This document shows positions 4,270 through 37,403 of a stretch of DNA of 64,000 nt, piece by piece; positions within the stretch are counted from its first letter, which is position 1, and every line of letters begins with the position of its first letter. The notes beneath the pieces are model-generated. The model was not told the origin of the DNA and made no database searches. It saw only the letters and a list, made by a program, of their open reading frames with translations. The position numbers and the translations under genes were made by a program. This DNA comes from Kocuria salsicia (lineage in GTDB: Bacteria; Actinomycetota; Actinomycetes; Actinomycetales; Micrococcaceae): positions 1 to 64,000 of the forward strand of contig NZ_VELE01000009.1 of NCBI RefSeq assembly GCF_007681555.1. Reading direction: 5' to 3'.

Positions 4270-5403
4270 TCAGGCCGCGTCGAGGGCCTGGGCGAGGTCC
4301 GCGATGAGGTCCTCGACGTCCTCGATGCCCACGGCCACGCGCAGCAGGTTCTCGCTCAGGTGCGCCAGCTCGCGGTCCTCAGGTGAGTATGCCCCATGGG
4401 TCATGGATGCGGGGAGGCAGATCAGAGACTCGATGCCGCCCAGGCTCACTGCGAAGCCGAAGATCTCCAGGCGGCCGAGGAACGCCCGGACGTCCTTGCC
4501 TGGGAGGAGCTCGAAGGAGAACAGCCCCCCGAGCCCGTCCGCCTGGGCCTCCTGGATCCGGGCCTCCTCCTCGTCGAAGGATCCGGGGACGAGGACTCGC
4601 GCCACCTCGTCCCGGCCGCGCAGGAACTCTACGATCCGGTGGGCGTTCTCCTGCTGGCGGTCCAGGCGGATGCCGAGGGTCTTCACGGACTGGATCAGTC
4701 GGTAGGAGTCGATGGGGGAGAGCACCCCGCCCGAGACCATCTGTGCCAGGTGCAGCTGCTGGGCCATCTCGTCGTCGTTGGTGCTGACCACGCCGCCCAG
4801 CAGGTCCCCGTGGCCGCCGAGGTACTTGGTGGCGGACTGCACGGTGACGTCCGCGCCCAGCTCCAGCGGGCGCTGCAGGTACGGGGTGAGGAACGTGTTG
4901 TCCACGACCACCATGGCGCCGTGGCGGTGGGCAAGCTCGACGACACGTCGGATGTCGGTCACGCGCAGCGTGGGGTTGGACGGCGTCTCGAGGAACACGA
5001 TGCGCGTGCTCTCGTCGAAGTCCTCGTCCGAGAGCCGGTTGAGGTCGTCGTGGAAGTGCGTGGTGATCCCGCGCTTGGGCAGCTCAATGGTGGCCCACCG
5101 GTAGTTGCCGCCGTAGACGGGCAGGCCCATGATCACCGAGTCACCGGCGTGCAGGGTGCCGAGCACGGCCCCGGTGGCAGCCATGCCGGTGGCGAACGCG
5201 AAGGAGTGCCGGGCGCCCTCGAGCGCCGCCAGGGTGGTCTCGGCATCGGTGCGCGTGGGGTTCGACCCGCGCTGGTACTCGAAGGGACCCTCGCCGCCCT
5301 CGGTGGGCTGCAGGAACGTGGAGGCGGTGTGGATCGGGGGCACCACGGCACCCAGGGCGACGTCGTGCAGCGCGTGGATGGTGCGTGTGGTGAAGCCGGC
5401 CAA
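4270..5403 (-). CDS. Cystathionine gamma-synthase / gamma-lyase family PLP enzyme
   Basis: A 377-residue Cys/Met metabolism PLP enzyme. Evidence is the YQRGSNPTR region that binds PLP phosphate, FLETPSNPTLRVTDI, VVDNTF, and the Schiff-base lysine in SATKYLGGH (Lys193). It would make cystathionine from an activated homoserine or cleave cystathionine/cystine; the sequence does not separate these roles. Being first in an operon with a cystine-type importer favours use of imported cystine or transsulfuration. The start is a TTG preceded by a strong GGAGGA at about 7 bases, so it is preferred over internal ATGs, which would delete the N-terminal arm. Confidence 0.85.
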   Translation of the reverse strand: MAGFTTRTIHALHDVALGAVVPPIHTASTFLQPTEGGEGPFEYQRGSNPTRTDAETTLAALEGARHSFAFATGMAATGAVLGTLHAGDSVIMGLPVYGGNYRWATIELPKRGITTHFHDDLNRLSDEDFDESTRIVFLETPSNPTLRVTDIRRVVELAHRHGAMVVVDNTFLTPYLQRPLELGADVTVQSATKYLGGHGDLLGGVVSTNDDEMAQQLHLAQMVSGGVLSPIDSYRLIQSVKTLGIRLDRQQENAHRIVEFLRGRDEVARVLVPGSFDEEEARIQEAQADGLGGLFSFELLPGKDVRAFLGRLEIFGFAVSLGGIESLICLPASMTHGAYSPEDRELAHLSENLLRVAVGIEDVEDLIADLAQALDAA

Positions 5404-5494
5404 GAGTTCCTCCGTCGTGAGTAGTCAGAGAGGCCAGGTCTACACGGATCGGCGCGCCGGTGCGAGTCTGTTGCGCCGGAAGTCGTGATGTGGC

Positions 5495-5519
5495 GCACCG
5501 GGGTTTCCCGTCCCGGTGC
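5495..5519 (-). terminator. Hairpin between pdxT and the MetB operon
   Basis: Inverted repeat GCACCGGG / CCCGGTGC with a short loop lies about 60 bases after the pdxT stop on the minus strand and about 90 bases before the next gene. It lacks a clean U-run. It could terminate pdxST or act in the leader of the MetB operon. Confidence 0.4.
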
Positions 5520-5581
5520 TGGTCGGGGGGGGGCGTCCTGCGCCCTGCCCGAGTTCGTCTGGGCGCTCACCCCGACCGTGC

Positions 5582-6268
5582 TCACCCCCGGCGGGCGGCC
5601 ACCTGCTCCAGCAGCATCCGGTGCAGGGTGGTGTCCCCCGTGAGCTCCGGGTGGAAGCTGATGCCCAGCACGCTGCCCTGGCGCACCGCCACCACCGCAC
5701 CCCGGTGGCGCGCGAGAACTTCCACGCCGTCGCCCGCACGGGTCACTTCGGGGGCGCGGATGAAGGCCGCGCGCACCACGTCACCGGGCGCCACGACGTC
5801 GCTCGCTGGGCCCTCCCACGCCAGCTCCACCTCCGCAGAGGCCACCTGCGAACCGAACGCGTTGCGGTTCACGCTCACGTCCAGCACCCCGAGGGACTGC
5901 TGGCCGGGGGCCGGATCCTCGATCTCGGAGGAGAGCATGATGAGCCCGGCGCACGTGCCGAGCGTGGGCAGGCCTCCGCGGACCACCCGTTGCAAGGAGT
6001 CGAACAGTCCGAACGTACGGCACAGCCGGTCCACCGTGGAGGACTCCCCGCCGGGCAGGATCAGCGCGTCGATGCGGGGGGCGCCGTCCGGGTCCACGAG
6101 ATCGTCGGCGGAGCGCACCTTCACGGCGTGGGCGCCCAGGGACTCCACCGCGCGCACGTGCTCCACGACGCCGCCCTGCAGGGCGAGCACGCCCACAGTG
6201 GGGTGGGCGCTCGGGCCCGGCAGGGCGGCGTCGTCGTGCGGGTGGTGCTGCGAGGGGGACCCGCTCAC
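5582..6268 (-). CDS. pdxT: Pyridoxal 5'-phosphate synthase glutaminase subunit
   Basis: Releases ammonia from glutamine and channels it to PdxS for direct PLP synthesis in the cytoplasm. The 228-residue protein has [12 protein letters not shown] at about 26-37, the oxyanion/substrate motif LPGGEST-like (PGGESSTV), nucleophile Cys106 in [10 protein letters not shown] and the His-Glu pair in SFHPEL. The GTG at 6268 overlaps the pdxS stop (GTGA), with GGAG upstream, and is preferred to the TTG one codon earlier. About 23 residues precede the conserved start region, so the N-terminus is longer than usual. Confidence 0.93.
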
Positions 6269-7307: not shown

Positions 7308-8900
7308 GTGCGCCATCCCCGCGAGATCGACCTGCCGCTCACGCTGGACCGCACCCCGGGTGCGCCCCTGGGCGAGCAGCTCGTCCGGCAGGTCCGCGAG
7401 CTCGTGGCCCGGGGCGTGCTGCACCCTGGTGATCCCCTGCCGTCCTCGCGTGCGCTCGCAGCCCGGCTCGGCATCTCGCGCGGGACTGTCACGGCCGCGT
7501 GGGATGTTCTGAACGGCGAGGGCTATCTGGTGGCCGACCGCGGCGCCACGCGGATCACACCCTCCCTCGCGCCGGTCGTGCGGTCGGCTCCGAGCCTCCG
7601 CACGACCTCACCGGGGGAGCAGCGCAACGCCGCCGCGCGGCGTGGGGGTTCGGGTACGACGTCGCCCGGCGATCCTTCCAAGGCATCGGCGGGGTGGACG
7701 CCGGCACGGCGGGGCGCGGCAGGTTCGGCGCGGAACCGGGTCGCTCGGTCCGGCTCCCACCTCGACCTCCGGCCGGGCGCAGGCCCCGTGGTTGCCCTGG
7801 ACACCCCCGCCTGGCGCGGTGCGTGGCGGGACGCCGCGGGAGCCACGGCCTTGGGCGACAGCGCGGAAACATCCCTGCGGGGGCATCTGTCCGACCATCT
7901 GCGGCTGAACCGGGGGATTGTCCGCGCGCCCGAAGAGATCCTCGTGACCGCCGGAGTGCGGGACGGGCTGCAGCTGGTGCTGCGCGTGCTGGGTACCGCG
8001 CGCCGTCGTCCCCTGCGCGTGGCGGTGGAGAATCCCGGCTACCCGGCCCTGCGCCGCGTGGTCGAGGCCACCGGGCACACCGCGCTGCCCGTGCGGGTGG
8101 ACCAGCACGGGCTGGACCCTGCGGTGCTGCCCGCCGGTCGTTGGGGCGGGGCCGGCAGGTGGGACGTGGCCGCACTCCCGGACGTCCTGGTGGTCACACC
8201 CGGGCACCAGTATCCCCTGGGCGGCACCATGACGGTGGATCGCCGGGTGGAGCTGCTCGGCTGGGCCCGTGAGCACGGCACGGTGGTGGTCGAGGACGAC
8301 TACGACTCCGAGCTGCGCCACACCGGCCAGCCGCTGCCCGCGCTCGGGGCCCTGGACACCCCCGCGGACACCGTGGTCACCCTGGGCAGCTTCTCCAAGG
8401 TCCTGGGCGGCTCGGTGGCACTCGGGCACCTGGTGGCCCCCGCACCGCTGCTGCCCGGGCTGCTCGCCGCCCGCGCAGACCTGGGCTCGCCCGTCTCGCT
8501 CGTGGGTCAGGACGCGCTGGCCCGTTTCATGGGCTCGGGCGAGTTCCAGCGGCACACGGCCAGGATGCGCCGATCCTTCCGACGACGCCGCTCGCTCGTC
8601 TCCGCCGCCCTCGCCGGGATCCCCGGTGTGGCCGTGGCGCCCATGGCCGGCGGGGCCCACGCGGTGGTGGAGGTGGCGGACGAGTCCCGGGTGCTCGCGC
8701 TCGCCCGGGAGCGCGGCGTGCTGGTGAGCGGGCTGCGGGAGTACTGGACCGCGCGCCCCGGCGAGGACGGCGTGGGAGGGGGCGCGGCGGCGGTGTCCTC
8801 CGCGGAAGGGCTTGTCCTGGGACTCACGGCATCGGACGAGGACCTCACGCGCGGAACCGCGGTGCTGCGCCGGATCCTGAGGGAGGCGGGCGGCTCCTAG
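7308..8900 (+). CDS. pdxR: MocR/GntR-type transcriptional regulator with aminotransferase domain
   Basis: A 530-residue fusion of a winged-helix GntR domain (residues about 8-80; [20 protein letters not shown]) and a class I aminotransferase-like domain. The PLP lysine lies in the segment [10 protein letters not shown]. Known MocR regulators of this type sense PLP and activate pdxST. The gene is divergent from pdxS with likely shared operators, so control of PLP synthesis is the natural reading. The GTG start has GAGGAG upstream. The linker between domains (about residues 90-155) is long and Gly/Ala/Arg rich, making the protein about 50 residues longer than usual. Confidence 0.88.
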
Positions 8901-29031: not shown

Positions 29032-30035
29032 CCGTTCGGCCACGAGAACATGGGGGAGGTCGTCGAGGTCGGTAGTGGCGTGGAGAAGGTCAGGGTCGGA
29101 GACCGGGTTGTGCTGCCGTTCAATATCTCGTGCGGATTCTGTAAGAACTGCGAACGCGGGCTCACGAACTATTGCCTGACGACGCAACCCGACCCGTCGA
29201 CCGCCGGTGCGGCCTACGGGTTCGCCGCAATGGACCCGTACGGCGGTGGCCAAGCGGAACTGCTCCGGGTGCCTTTCGGTGATCACAACGCGCTGCGCCT
29301 GGGTGAAGATGCGGAGGAGAAGGAGAACGACTACGTCATGCTCTCCGACATCTTCCCCACCGACTACCACGCCACCGAGATGGCCGGCGTGATCCCGGGC
29401 GACAGTGTTGTTATCGCCGGGGCGGGTCTGGTCGGGCTGATGGCCGCCCTGTTCGCGATGATCAAGGGCGCCGCGAAGGTGATGGTGGTCGATCGTCACC
29501 CTGACCGGCTCGCGTTGGCCGAGCAGATCGGCGCGATCGCCATCGATGACTCCAAGGTCGATCCCGTGCAAACCGTTCTCGACGAGACGATGGGGCTGGG
29601 AGCCGACCGGGGCTGCGAATGCGTGGGTTACCAGGCCCACGATCCCCAGGGAAACGAAGACACGGCCGCTACCCTGAACATGCTCATCAACGCGGTGCGC
29701 TTCACCGGACGAATCGGCACCGTCGGCGTGTTCGTCCCCCAGGGCCCCGGAAGCAAGGATGACCTGCGCCAAGCAGGGAAAGGCGGCCATCGACTTCGGC
29801 ACGCATTGGTTCACGGGTCAGACCATGGGTAGCGGTCAGGCCCCGGTCAAGCGGTACAACCGCCAGCTGCGGGACTTGATCGCCGCCGGCAAGGCGACCC
29901 CCTCGTGGATCGTCTCCCACGAGGGGGTCGCTGGACCAGGCCGCCGATGCCTACAAGAACTTCGACGCCAGGTCCGAGGGTTGGACGAAGGTCCTCATCA
30001 AGCCCGGGATGTCGACGGAGAAGAAGGCGAGCTGA
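29032..30035 (+). pseudogene. Frameshifted zinc-dependent alcohol/formaldehyde dehydrogenase
   Basis: The frame opens at FGHENMGEVVEVG and runs through a structural-zinc cluster (CGFCKNCERGLTNYC), FAAMDPYGGGQAE and the NAD-binding GAGLVGLMAAL. At about 29750 the reading shifts to another frame (AIDFGTHWFTGQTMGSGQAP), and near 29930 it shifts again (LDQAADAYKNFDARSEGWTK) to a TGA at 30033. The first about 60 residues, including the catalytic-zinc Cys, are absent. It resembles glutathione-independent formaldehyde dehydrogenases and is distantly similar to the intact enzyme at 36210. Two frameshifts and the missing N-terminus make a functional product unlikely. Confidence 0.85.
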
Positions 30036-32177: not shown

Positions 32178-32329
32178 CCCCCGGTCTTTCATGACGGCGG
32201 TCGGGATCGTGTCGGAGCCGTGTGGTCGAGTGCGCCCGTGTGCGGAGTGATTGCGGGTATGACGACGGGCCGGCTGGCGCTGCCGGGCTGCGGTTTTCCG
32301 GGTGGTGATGTCGTGGGCGGACGGGCCAG

Positions 32330-32740
32330 GTCGGGCCGGTTGCGGGATGGCGGCGATGTTCGCGAAGGCCGCGACGATGGCGGTTGCCCAGGGCCATGAC
32401 TCCGGGATCTTGAGGCGACGTCGGCGTTGCCTGCCTGCAGCTTGGCGGCGAGGAACTCACTGGTGTTGTCGCACCAAACCCCGATCGGGTGGTAGCCGAA
32501 GGGCCGTTTGAACGTGGCGGCCGCGTTCTCCTTCTGGCTGTGCGCGATCACGCTCGTGGCGTCGATCTCTAGCACGATGACGTCGGCGAGGTTGGTCCCG
32601 GCGACCTTGGAGGCCGGGATGCCGCCGGGCAGTTGGGCCCACATGTGGCGCCGGACCCGAGCACGGGCGGCCGCGATCTTATTCCGTCGACCGGGCGTCA
32701 TCGACTTCAGCGTGCGCCACACCGTCGGCCGTCACGGACA
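32330..32740 (-). mobile_element. IS1380-family transposase remnant
   Basis: From about 32722 leftward the frame reads VWRTL-like MWRTLKSMTPGRRNKI, PASKVAGTNLADVIVLEIDA, SVIAHSQKENAAATFKRPFG and CDNTSEFLAAKLQAGNA. This is the middle of an IS1380-type DDE transposase, including the catalytic-Asp strand. Homology in this frame stops near 32398. A C-terminal-like segment (WPWATAIVAAFANIAAIP) appears shortly after in another frame, implying an internal deletion. The N-terminal about 100 residues and the inverted repeats are not found. The element is dead. Confidence 0.75.
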
Positions 32741-32859: not shown

Positions 32860-33012
32860 TCACTCCGCGGCGTCGTGAACGATCCGGGCTAGCAGTTTAG
32901 TTGCGGTGGCAGCTCCAGCTCCTCCTGCAAAGAGGCCTCCGAAGCACTGCACCGTAGCCGCGTGCTCGTCAGGGGAGGGGCCTTGACCTCGAAATTTGGA
33001 CCCGTGAGCCAT
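32860..33012 (-). CDS. 50-residue peptide ORF with glycine-rich hydrophobic core
   Basis: A short open frame begins at ATG 33012 (weak AGG upstream) and ends at TGA 32860-32862. The product has a polar N-terminus (MAHGSKFRGQGPSPDEHAAT). A glycine/alanine-rich hydrophobic core follows (CFGGLFAGGAGAATATKLLA), then a charged tail. It lies on the same strand just after the terminator of the glycine-zipper locus. It could be a second small peptide of that locus, or chance. No family recognised. Confidence 0.3.
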   Translation of the reverse strand: MAHGSKFRGQGPSPDEHAATVQCFGGLFAGGAGAATATKLLARIVHDAAE

Positions 33013-33125
33013 GCATGCCCTGCATCGGGGTGCGATCAGCCGGTCAAGGGCAGGGGGTACTGCTCATCCCACTACGACAAGTGGCAACGGCAGCGTCCGA
33101 AGGAACAGTAATAGGCCTACAAGAA

Positions 33126-33160
33126 ATCGCCCCCGGCCTAAGGATTCTGGCCGGGAGCGA
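33126..33160 (-). terminator. Rho-independent terminator of the glycine-zipper locus
   Basis: On the minus strand the arms CCCGGCC and GGCCGGG enclose a 10-base loop (AGAATCCTTA), with extended partial pairing of TCGC/GCGA, followed by TTTCTT. It lies directly after the stop of the 58-residue membrane protein. Confidence 0.7.
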
Positions 33161-33166
33161 TCGGGT

Positions 33167-33343
33167 TCAACTCAAATGCTGCGATTTTCTGGCCCAGTAC
33201 GATGTTACCGAAATCGCAATGATTGCTGTAGCTATCAACAGGACCACAAACGGCCCCCCATTTGAAAGCGTCAGAGCCAAGGCGAGGGCAACGCTGACCC
33301 AAGCTGCGATGATTGCATACATGCCAGTTCTTTGCTGGTTCAC
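33167..33343 (-). CDS. 58-residue two-helix membrane protein (candidate immunity protein)
   Basis: The GTG at 33343 has GGAAGG 7 bases upstream. The product is VNQQRTG followed by two hydrophobic helices (MYAIIAAWVSVALALALTL and PFVVLLIATAIIAISVTSYW) and a short basic tail RKSQHLS. It lies only 19 bases after the stop of the glycine-zipper precursor gene and before a terminator, so the two are co-transcribed. Small two-helix proteins next to bacteriocin precursors are often self-protection proteins; that role here is inference. No homologous family is recognised. Confidence 0.6.
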   Translation of the reverse strand: MNQQRTGMYAIIAAWVSVALALALTLSNGGPFVVLLIATAIIAISVTSYWARKSQHLS

Positions 33344-33362
33344 TTGCAGTCCTTCCAGGTCA

Positions 33363-33911
33363 TCAGCAGGATGCAGCAGCGCCCACAGCGCCCACAGCGC
33401 CACCGCCAACGGCCCCGCCAATGGCGGTGCCAGTGGCCCATCCTGCAGCAGTTCCGGCCCCGGGCACGACGCTGCCGATGGTAGCCCCGGCAGTGCCACC
33501 TGCGATGTCCCCGGTCCCAGCACCCCCGCCGGTGCCGAGTGCGCACTTCCAGCCTCTGCTCACGGCTGCAGTCGCCATCGGATTATTGGTTGCCCTCGTC
33601 TTGGGATTCCACTGCAGGACGTTGATTGTCACAACGCCGTCTTTTTCCGCGTACTTCAAGGCGACGGTCTTGCCATTCTCGTCCTTCTCCTGAGAGGGAA
33701 GCGCCTGCTTGGTACCGTCCTTGGCGACCACAGCAGAGCCATCCTGGGCAGGCTTGTCGCCCTTGGAAAGACGGAACGCCATGTTGGAGTCATCAACCTT
33801 CTTGATGTTCCCCTGAACCTTTGCCACGTCGGCCTGGCTCGCTTGCTGTGACTGAGGGGCAGGTGCTTCGGCCGCCATTGACGCAGCGGCCATACCGCCA
33901 AGTAGTCCCAA
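33363..33911 (-). CDS. Secreted glycine-zipper protein, class II bacteriocin-like precursor
   Basis: The 182-residue product begins with a hydrophobic, signal-like segment (LLGGMAAASMAAEAPA). A hydrophilic middle domain follows (about residues 25-115, Lys/Asp-rich). Its C-terminal 62 residues start GWKCALGTGGG and end GAAASC, densely filled with Gly/Ala repeats (TAIGGAVGGGAVGAVG). Cys123 and Cys182 frame this zipper and could form a disulfide, as in lactobin/cerein-type class II bacteriocins. The start is uncertain: TTG at 33911 has AGGAG 10 bases before it, and open frame extends a little further without a start codon. Base composition is lower in GC than the surroundings, suggesting acquisition. 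Confidence 0.65.
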   Translation of the reverse strand: MGLLGGMAAASMAAEAPAPQSQQASQADVAKVQGNIKKVDDSNMAFRLSKGDKPAQDGSAVVAKDGTKQALPSQEKDENGKTVALKYAEKDGVVTINVLQWNPKTRATNNPMATAAVSRGWKCALGTGGGAGTGDIAGGTAGATIGSVVPGAGTAAGWATGTAIGGAVGGGAVGAVGAAASC

Positions 33912-34302
33912 GGAGAGAGCCGCTCCTGGTGGCGCGGTGATTAGTGTGCATCACGAGAACTTACGGAGGAGGCCGTGGTGATCGCAAACACAGGAGGGTC
34001 AATGCTACCAAATAGTTACATAAATTGGCCGTTTGGCTAGACTTCAAAAATTTTGAAATGACCAACCGGTTTGACTTCATCCTCAAACGGGCTTACGGCT
34101 TGCAAAGCCGATACACCTTTGGTGGTGGCGCGATAGCCATCATCTCGCGGGATGAGGGTGGGTGGAGGGGGAGCGGAAAAACGCTCATAACAGACATGAT
34201 GTTAAATATGGGGCGTGAGGTGCAGCTCCACACCCCCCAGAATGGCCGATAATCGGGGCAGAACCTCTCCTTATGCGCTGCGCACGCGCCCGGCGGCGCC
34301 CC
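33912..34302. other. 391-base lower-GC intergenic region with promoter and palindrome
   Basis: This is the most A/T-rich part of the window. It contains the palindrome TTCAAAA-A-TTTTGAA at 34043-34057. On the minus strand TTGAAG overlapping it is followed 18 bases on by TTATGT, a plausible promoter for the glycine-zipper gene. A 75-codon rightward frame here has no Shine-Dalgarno or family and is not called. Probably horizontally acquired regulatory DNA. Confidence 0.45.
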
Positions 34303-35736: not shown

Positions 35737-35980
35737 TCATCCGGGTATCGGCACAGATGGGGACAACGCGTCGGCCACCTGCGGTCCCGGGTCCGCGAGA
35801 CGGATCAGCTCCGTCATGAGCCGTGACCCGATGCCCTCCCACTGCCGCTCGGGTGCGACCGAGACCGGTCCGATCCCGCGCACGGGGGTTTACCCGCATG
35901 CCCCTCCCCGTGGCCTTGAGGCGGACCATGAATTCCGGGCCGTCGTCGTCGGGGAGCGCGCGGCGGATGTCGAGGTTCAT
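35737..35980 (-). pseudogene. GNAT acetyltransferase remnant
   Basis: The start reads MNLDIRRALPDDDGPEF, a typical GNAT N-terminus. In a second frame follows IGPVSVAPERQWEGIGSRLM, the acetyl-CoA-binding motif A, then TELIRLAD and a stop at 35737. Only about 80 codons remain of a family of about 150, so an internal deletion with frameshift has removed the middle. Confidence 0.65.
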
Positions 35981-36209
35981 GGCGCCACTGCGCGCAGGGT
36001 GGCGCAGGGTTCGCCCAACGTTCATTCGAGGGTGCGATGAGAATCGTTCACAGCGCGCTGGGGAATGGTTCTCACCGAGGCGGCCGTTCCGACGAATGCT
36101 GGCGCTCTCCTTGGTTTTTGCGAATATGAGCGCGGTGCTACCGATTGGCGGCACCGTCACCTATGGCCTGCGTGCTCTACGATGCGGCAGGCCCAAAGGA
36201 GCTAAGACG

Positions 36210-37403
36210 ATGGCAAATGGCAATCGCGCAGTGGTGTTCCACGGCACCGGCAACATGCAGGTGGACACGGTGGAGTACCCAAAGCTCGTCATGCCGAATG
36301 GGAAGAAGGCCCCGCACGGCGTCATCCTCAGGATCGTGGCCACGAACATTTGCGGTAGCGACCTGCACATCTACCGCGGCTCGTTCCCCGTGCCTGAGGG
36401 CATGCGCATGGGCCACGAGATGACCGGGGAGGTCGTGGAAGTAGGCTCGGACGTCGAGTTCTTGAGCGAGGGGGACCTCGTCTCCGTGCCGTTCAACGTG
36501 GCGTGCGGCCGTTGCCGTAACTGTCGTGCCGGACGCACCGAAGTGTGCGAGACCACCAACCCGGACACCGCGTGCGCCGCGTACGGGTTCAACCTGGGCA
36601 ACTGGGACGGCGGACAGTCTGAGTACATGTTCGTGCCGTACGCGGACTTCCAGCTGCTGCGCTTCCCGGACCGGGACCAGGCCATGGAGAAGATCCGGGA
36701 CCTCGCTCTCCTCTCCGACATCCTGCCCACCGCATTCCACGGCCTCATGGAGGCGGGCGCCAAGCCCGGTTCTACGGTCTACATCGCGGGCGCCGGGCCC
36801 GTGGGCCGCTGCGGGGCCGCCGCGGCACGGCTGCTCGGGGCGTCCTGCATCATTGTGGGCGACTACAGCAAGGAGCGGCTGGATCTCGTGCGGCAGAACG
36901 GCTGCGAGACCATCGACCTCTCCGAAGACGTCCCGCTGACCGAGCAGATCGAGGCGATCCTGGGCGAGCCCATGGTCGACTGCGCGGTGGACTACGTGGG
37001 CACCGAGGCCCACGGCATCGGCTCCGAGGCGGAGAAGACGGATCCCGCATATGCCGTGAACCAGGTCCTGGACGCCACCCGCGCGGGCGGTGCCACGGGT
37101 ATCATCGGCGTCTACGGCCCGGATCCGCTGGCGTCCTCGAAGGCGGAGCAGGAGGGTACGTACCCCATCGACTTCGGCAAGGCATGGATCAAGTCCCCGC
37201 GCATCTCTGCTGGCCAGGCGCCCATCATGCACTACAACCGTGAGCTCATGATGTCGATCCTCTGGGACCGCATGCCGTACCTGAGCAAGATGCTCAACAC
37301 CAAGGTCATCAGCCTCGACGAGGTGCCTGAGGCCTACGCGGCCTTCGACGCGGGCTCGGATGACAAGTACATCATCGACCCGCACGGCATGATCAAGGCC
37401 TGA
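36210..37403 (+). CDS. fdhA: Zinc-dependent alcohol dehydrogenase, glutathione-independent formaldehyde dehydrogenase type
   Basis: A 397-residue MDR-family enzyme. Catalytic zinc ligands are Cys48 (NICGSDLH) and His69-Glu70 (MGHE). The structural zinc lobe is CGRCRNCRAGRTEVC. The NAD-binding motif is GAGPVGRCGAAAA. Length and the long insertions match dismutating/glutathione-independent formaldehyde dehydrogenases, which oxidise formaldehyde with bound NAD+. The ATG has AAAGGAG about 9 bases upstream; an in-frame upstream extension lacks support. A double-hairpin terminator follows. A decayed relative lies at 29032. Confidence 0.88.
   Translation: MANGNRAVVFHGTGNMQVDTVEYPKLVMPNGKKAPHGVILRIVATNICGSDLHIYRGSFPVPEGMRMGHEMTGEVVEVGSDVEFLSEGDLVSVPFNVACGRCRNCRAGRTEVCETTNPDTACAAYGFNLGNWDGGQSEYMFVPYADFQLLRFPDRDQAMEKIRDLALLSDILPTAFHGLMEAGAKPGSTVYIAGAGPVGRCGAAAARLLGASCIIVGDYSKERLDLVRQNGCETIDLSEDVPLTEQIEAILGEPMVDCAVDYVGTEAHGIGSEAEKTDPAYAVNQVLDATRAGGATGIIGVYGPDPLASSKAEQEGTYPIDFGKAWIKSPRISAGQAPIMHYNRELMMSILWDRMPYLSKMLNTKVISLDEVPEAYAAFDAGSDDKYIIDPHGMIKA

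Follow-up and report, generated by a model that had tools for sequence, protein, structure and literature searches.

A putative two-gene bacteriocin-immunity cassette in Kocuria salsicia with relatives on chromosomes, plasmids and phages

Two adjacent genes in a 64,000-nucleotide stretch of the Kocuria salsicia contig NZ_VELE01000009.1 (assembly GCF_007681555.1, positions 1 to 64,000; hereafter the window) are read here as a putative cassette for an unmodified bacteriocin of an undescribed type and its immunity protein. We place the probability of this reading at about 0.7, judging from sequence comparison. The first gene encodes a precursor with a long pro-region and a glycine-rich core, and the second encodes a small protein with two transmembrane (TM) segments. 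The precursors probably form a new family of unmodified bacteriocins that lies outside the lactobin/cerein class.

Table 1. Features at the gene pair in the window.
Feature	Position	Strand	Remarks
Precursor frame, 182 aa	33363-33911	(-)	TTG start, 5' end uncertain
Candidate signal: hydrophobic N-terminal residues, about 1-18	33858-33911	(-)	aligns with signal-like starts of relatives
Pro-region, about residues 19-122	33546-33857	(-)	modelled as beta-rich, low to moderate confidence
C-terminal core (residues 123-182), a Gly/Ala-rich zipper with a Cys at either end	33366-33545	(-)	
58-aa two-TM protein, candidate immunity protein	33167-33343	(-)	GTG start
Terminator-like hairpin 3' of the pair	33125-33162	(-)	-28.3 kcal/mol, z -3.64
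Transposase fragment (DDE_Tnp_1_4)	32189-32722	(-)	E 5.4e-10, match limited to profile positions 138-198 of 435
Ambiguous 5' end	33912-33954	(-)	read directly from sequence

The precursor has no cysteines besides those at 123 and 182 (Table 1). The core, counted from Cys to Cys, is 60 residues long with 62% Gly+Ala and one charged residue, and a detector for such cores (two Cys, the second close to the C-terminus, G+A of at least 42% and few charges) matched this frame alone in the whole window. The stop codon of the precursor is separated from the GTG of the 58-residue frame by 19 nt, with GGAAGGA (33350-33356) 6 nt 5' of this GTG. AlphaFold2, run on the single sequence, modelled the 58-residue protein as two helices (2-28 and 31-56; mean pLDDT 75.8). 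These results bear out the initial annotation of a GTG-started, two-helix protein of this size and position, and its other elements held with qualifications. The signal-bearing 182-residue protein it described has 182 open codons, but its N-terminus starts at TTG and carries no basic residue ahead of its hydrophobic stretch; the Gly/Ala domain between the two cysteines was correct in frame and composition, but is shorter than the 62 residues given. Where a U-run terminator had been called, the hairpin is strong but the T-run 3' of it is short, and a simple terminator scan with a loop limit of 8 did not list it.

The G+C content at the pair is 60.4% compared to 70.1% for the window, which places the locus at the 1.1 percentile among equal-sized stretches. 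The transposase fragment is about 450 nt from the pair, and its presence there is consistent with mobility. Neither a promoter scan nor an Rfam search returned anything at the locus, no ABC transporter was found in the seven neighbouring frames scanned with Pfam, and no modification enzyme or exporter adjoining the pair was noticed in the stretches read. The low-GC stretch is flanked by two zinc alcohol-dehydrogenase-like frames, 29050-29832 (+) and 35823-37403 (+); the former looks truncated, with its ADH_N match starting only at profile position 41. The interval from the transposase fragment to the pair has a small Cys-containing frame of 49 aa (32962-33111, (+)), for which Pfam at E <= 0.01 and NCBIfam gave no match.

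The 5' end of the window copy is doubtful on account of its TTG start and poor signal peptide, and this copy may be impaired or misassembled. Although hydrophobic, its N-terminus lacks a basic residue ahead of the hydrophobic stretch, unlike the ordinary signal-like starts of the aligned relatives. There is an in-frame TGA (33951-33953) 14 codons 5' of the TTG, and an ATG (33949-33951) opens a frame with a basic N-terminus in a different register from the precursor. An assembly slip, a real lesion and a true TTG start, with an AGGAG (33923-33927) eleven nt upstream, are all possible. In the tree, where 7 of 16 inner branches were starred, the window protein is on a long branch and its placement is not firm, so no donor is named. 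The pair could be a decaying remnant beside the transposase fragment, as the lack of an in-frame start with a basic n-region, the upstream TGA, the long branch and the adjoining fragment would suggest. However, the 182 codons are open, both cysteines and the core are retained, the partner frame and the hairpin are intact, and a TTG start with the AGGAG ahead of it is possible. We consider the chance of decay substantial, if short of even; it would concern this copy only and is compatible with the other readings, among them the cassette.

We compiled 22 full-length members of the precursor family: the window copy, three from its taxonomic family (G231, G059 and G184), those of Alkalicoccobacillus gibsonii and Bacillus sonorensis, three from the bacilli G889, G746 and G838, eight from Staphylococcus plasmids, two from Priestia plasmids and three from phage records (PT1028, SPbeta-like 2 and one IMG/VR SPbeta-like copy). 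PT1028 is a phage-related island. Left outside the 22 were L052, whose record ends just past the gene; L061, annotated in two pieces; L079, with the core end only; L080, which is divergent and has no second Cys; ten copies (L062-L069, L071 and L072) that match a PT1028 or SPbeta-like member at 95-100% identity; and 17 of the 29 plasmid and 3 of the 5 phage records matched by the S. epidermidis precursor. L070 was rejected as a member since it sits within a 1373-aa frame that by eye resembles a tape-measure protein. In L061 (NZ_CP077871.1, a Staphylococcus aureus plasmid) the two annotated pieces overlap and lie near a cadmium-resistance gene. L079 (G666) is an open frame of 93 aa covering the core region only and is followed by a 59-aa hydrophobic frame, and L080 (G829) keeps the first Cys as well as a two-TM frame of at most 76 aa downstream.

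Members were found rarely in any one sample. Among 245 genomes from the family of the window, a search with the window protein matched 9, with G231 and G059 full-length besides the window copy; a three-row profile added G184 and gave some match in 13 of the 245. The 17-row profile A4 found a full-length member in 4 of 240 genomes of the same family and any match in 17, the other 13 being weak and mostly on Gly-rich parts of longer frames. For the order of B. sonorensis the figures were 5 of 299 full-length, two of them already known, and 13 of 299 for any match, with G666 and G829 as partial or divergent matches. Of 296 genomes in the class sample, the window's own was alone in having a full-length member (any match, 6), and profile A1 found 2 of 396 in the order sample (any match, 8), these two samples containing only part of the genomes named as members. 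Of two scans of genome contigs, one returned no loci and the other two, those of A. gibsonii and B. sonorensis. By tblastn, the G059 protein matched one plasmid record, S. epidermidis pKSE124-2-1 (E 0.03). The S. epidermidis precursor matched 29 plasmid records (26 Staphylococcus, 3 Priestia) and five Staphylococcus phage records, including PT1028 and SPbeta-like phages. Plasmid searches by tblastn with the window protein and with L003, and a search of viral contigs with profile A1, gave no match. The records that carry members annotate them as hypothetical, 'Pathogenicity island protein' or ORF011.

The family distribution is thus broad but sparse, and mobile. It is not specifically actinobacterial, as had been supposed, since 18 of the 22 members are in Bacillota or in phages and plasmids of Bacillota. 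With many members on plasmid and phage records, the pair might instead serve the mobile element itself as an addiction module or in phage or plasmid exclusion, with the precursor acting at the envelope. We find this improbable: members of both phyla have a signal-like start, and the members of G231, G746 and G838 are on megabase contigs and are therefore chromosomal.

The anatomy of the precursor is conserved across these hosts. Both cysteines are kept in all 22 full-length members (21 besides the window copy) and in 17 of 17 aligned rows, in which the invariant columns are Cys123, Cys182, G126, G129, G142, G165 and G177 for the core and G58, P72 and Y87 for the pro-region. The core starts at the first Cys and is 49-60 residues long, with the second Cys at or just before its end, and the pro-region is very roughly 100 residues; a third Cys occurs in 3 of the 22 members and is in the signal region. 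By table count over the 22 members, an Arg (15), Met (3) or Gln (4) is found 4-9 residues before the first Cys, and Lys (18), Gln (3) or Arg (1) immediately precedes it. This residue pattern suggests a putative cleavage site after Arg119 in the window protein. No twin-arginine start was visible by eye in the 17 aligned N-termini. In the model of the window precursor (mean pLDDT 44.2), strands are suggested in residues 36-99 at a pLDDT of roughly 50-70; the core was modelled without confidence (pLDDT about 30), and the ring and helices proposed below are therefore inferred.

Most of the tblastn hits listed for the S. epidermidis precursor ended at about residue 126, which prompted the idea that cores are exchangeable. 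We ruled this out upon reading 12 of the proteins, all of which have the Cys-framed core, and took the low-complexity filter of BLAST as the cause.

A two-TM frame of 51-66 residues, its TM segments called by hydropathy, begins -13 to +79 nt from the precursor stop in all 22 members. We compared this with other genes of at least 120 residues, using home-made gene callers and control loci some of which are closely related. A first control gave 1 of 184 genes followed by such a frame, and at ten high-GC loci the number was 1 of 168, both with a caller that favours high-GC genes; the one case among the 168 is an orphan related to the 58-aa gene of the window. With a longest-frame caller the numbers were 3 of 164 at high GC, two of the three again being orphan relatives of this gene, and 3 of 46 at fifteen AT-rich loci. 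Since small two-TM frames follow 3 of 46 other AT-rich genes, single cases prove little. In the AT-rich control, genes 7406-7807 and 11153-11827 of L048 (pKSE124-2-1) also have small two-TM frames after them. The partners show no visible homology across subgroups. The pairing first proposed, of a secreted precursor and its cognate two-helix membrane protein, is well supported by the 22 of 22 members that keep both the Cys pair and the small neighbour, a result that the initial annotation had named as a test of its own reading.

Relatives of the 58-aa protein occur in 5 of 17 congeneric genomes and in 2 other genomes of the window's family. None of these seven loci, examined over 13-19 kb each (with one flank below 2.5 kb in L021 and L024), has a core frame, and the seven genomes are absent from the matches of the precursor searches. 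In four congeners (L021-L024) the gene is between a nitrilase-like gene and a conserved small one, an interval that in L023 and L024 has further genes. In the window's genome (L100) these two genes are side by side with no 58-aa-like gene between them. This arrangement fits accessory, orphan immunity genes. Alternatively, the orphans could be ordinary, unrelated membrane proteins from which the immunity gene was recruited.

Selection was examined by the Nei-Gojobori method in seven pairs of members. Omega for the core was 0.00-0.11 in five of the seven, and that of the pro-region was never lower in these five; some members enter more than one pair, and dS approaches saturation in several cases, for example in the core of L049/L059. 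The cores of these five pairs look purified. No purifying signal was seen in the other two, each with few changes: the L049/L050 core has 5 nonsynonymous and 0 synonymous changes, and the L060/L073 core has an omega of 1.57. Among 17 members less than 85% identical, the distance between partners correlated with that between cores (Spearman 0.36, Mantel p 0.0013) and with that between pro-regions (Spearman 0.24, Mantel p 0.007), and the partial correlations were 0.32 for core and partner versus 0.17 for pro-region and partner. The modest core-partner correlation would fit a partner that recognises the core.

No family of Pfam or NCBIfam (14 precursors scanned) or of PHROGs (4 precursors) covers the protein, none scoring beyond a curated cut-off or matching strongly along more than a minor part of its profile. 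The window protein matched no Pfam family at E <= 5 and nothing in NCBIfam. The strongest Pfam score in the family was that of L057 to the N-terminal domain of RTX, at 21.7 bits and thus below the cut-off of 26.8, and the strongest NCBIfam score was a sub-threshold one of ExtJ on the N-terminus of L047 (E 0.0015). The PHROGs matches of the four precursors (tail, lysis, connector and unknown; best E 1.9e-5) were set aside because they are mostly on the Gly-rich part and cover small parts of long profiles, and in the PDB the family profile had two matches, with E values of 2.3 and 3.1. The SAR2788 family of putative toxins (NF038340), whose namesake is called an extracellular protein of S. aureus (PMC9973311), was rejected as the home family: L046 scored 13.9 bits against 50 (residues 11-108, E 0.035), none of three member-carrying records matched it at E <= 1, and the window protein did not match. 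No description of the precursor family was recognised in literature searches that covered few subscription papers.

The same libraries bear on whether the precursor is instead a structural or aggregating glycine-zipper protein of the surface, in envelope or matrix, with the small protein aiding its placement in the membrane. Glycine zippers are known in envelope proteins (PMC5380434), and L046 has a weak score to PF13441 YMGG (E 0.0052, 16.9 bits where the cut-off is 28.9), the best for any envelope zipper. However, none of the envelope families Rick_17kDa, YMGG and Gly-zipper_Omp was matched at cut-off by the 14 precursors, an outcome the initial annotation had also set as a test, and a sparse, mobile distribution with a variable partner gene does not suit such a role, which we regard as quite improbable. 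The bacteriocin reading is in our view the better one.

The initial annotation placed the pair in class II, with bacteriocins of the lactobin/cerein type (PF10439), and this assignment did not hold. Class II bacteriocins usually have a small immunity protein encoded next door, and the lactobin/cerein type shares with the window family a Gly-rich, hydrophobic core and a small neighbouring gene. It has a double-glycine leader, however, which the alignments show to be absent here in favour of a signal-like start and a long pro-region, the latter as first noted, and of cysteines at the core ends. PF10439 Bacteriocin_IIc itself was matched by 2 of 14 precursors at 16.5 and 17.2 bits, below the cut-off of 27.1, and not by the window protein. 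Circular bacteriocins of the AS-48 type close the backbone into a ring of hydrophobic helices; compared with these, the window core would be closed by a disulfide, nearly end to end, if its terminal cysteines pair.

Other systems resemble parts of the cassette. The archaeal halocin C8 is the released antimicrobial part, 76 aa, of a long exported precursor, which leaves by Tat and includes the immunity peptide HalI (PMC11509114); the window family would share the long exported precursor, whereas its immunity candidate is a separate two-TM gene. Dysgalacticin and streptococcin A-M57 are plasmid-encoded class III bacteriocins, the former exported by a leader (220 aa with the leader), disturbing the membrane potential and having the membrane-associated immunity protein DysI next door (PMC8308785). 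Compared by description only, dysgalacticin differs in being a large protein of 21.5 kDa. In the contact-dependent Cdz system of Caulobacter the killing proteins have glycine zippers and immunity comes from CdzI, a small transmembrane protein (PMC5380434); unlike the window family, its killing proteins are a pair of short ones (86 and 84 aa) that use type I secretion and form surface aggregates. The immunity proteins of two-peptide bacteriocins have one to four TM domains (PMC6957408).

Based on the family anatomy and on what is known of Cdz/CdzI, dysgalacticin/DysI, halocin C8 and the two-peptide immunity proteins, we propose how the cassette might work. The precursor would be exported by Sec, with the pro-domain holding the core soluble and inactive. 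Proteolysis at the conserved Arg, Met or Gln 4-9 residues before the first Cys would free the core, whose two cysteines may pair as a disulfide and close it into an almost end-to-end ring. In the membrane of a sensitive cell the glycine zipper could then pack the helices and lead to depolarisation, while the two-TM protein would protect the producer. More tentatively, and with less than even confidence, the family as a whole may consist of mobile, cross-phylum, Sec-exported bacteriocins that are silenced by the pro-domain and ringed through a disulfide between the terminal cysteines, that are traded on plasmids, phage islands and SPbeta-like phages, and that leave orphan immunity genes behind. 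As part of this same joint reading, the ring might be a disulfide-made counterpart of the circular bacteriocins.

That the core is a membrane-active peptide with a different role, for instance in signalling or on eukaryotic membranes, is very improbable, for although many hosts are staphylococci, the composition is membrane-active and the best Pfam score of the family is the sub-threshold RTX score of L057, members are also found in A. gibsonii, B. sonorensis, Priestia plasmids and actinobacteria, and a membrane partner that tracks the core argues for bacterial self-protection.

If the cassette reading is correct, staphylococci, bacilli and actinobacteria would have in common an unannotated class of killing peptides that current family libraries miss, with PT1028 and SPbeta-like phages among its carriers. 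Its two genes would make a scaffold for antimicrobials that is simple genetically, and one in which recognition of a peptide by its membrane immunity protein could readily be tested. Downstream of the pair on the PT1028-like contig L069, the frame at 4973-5905 resembled by eye an iron-siderophore binding lipoprotein.
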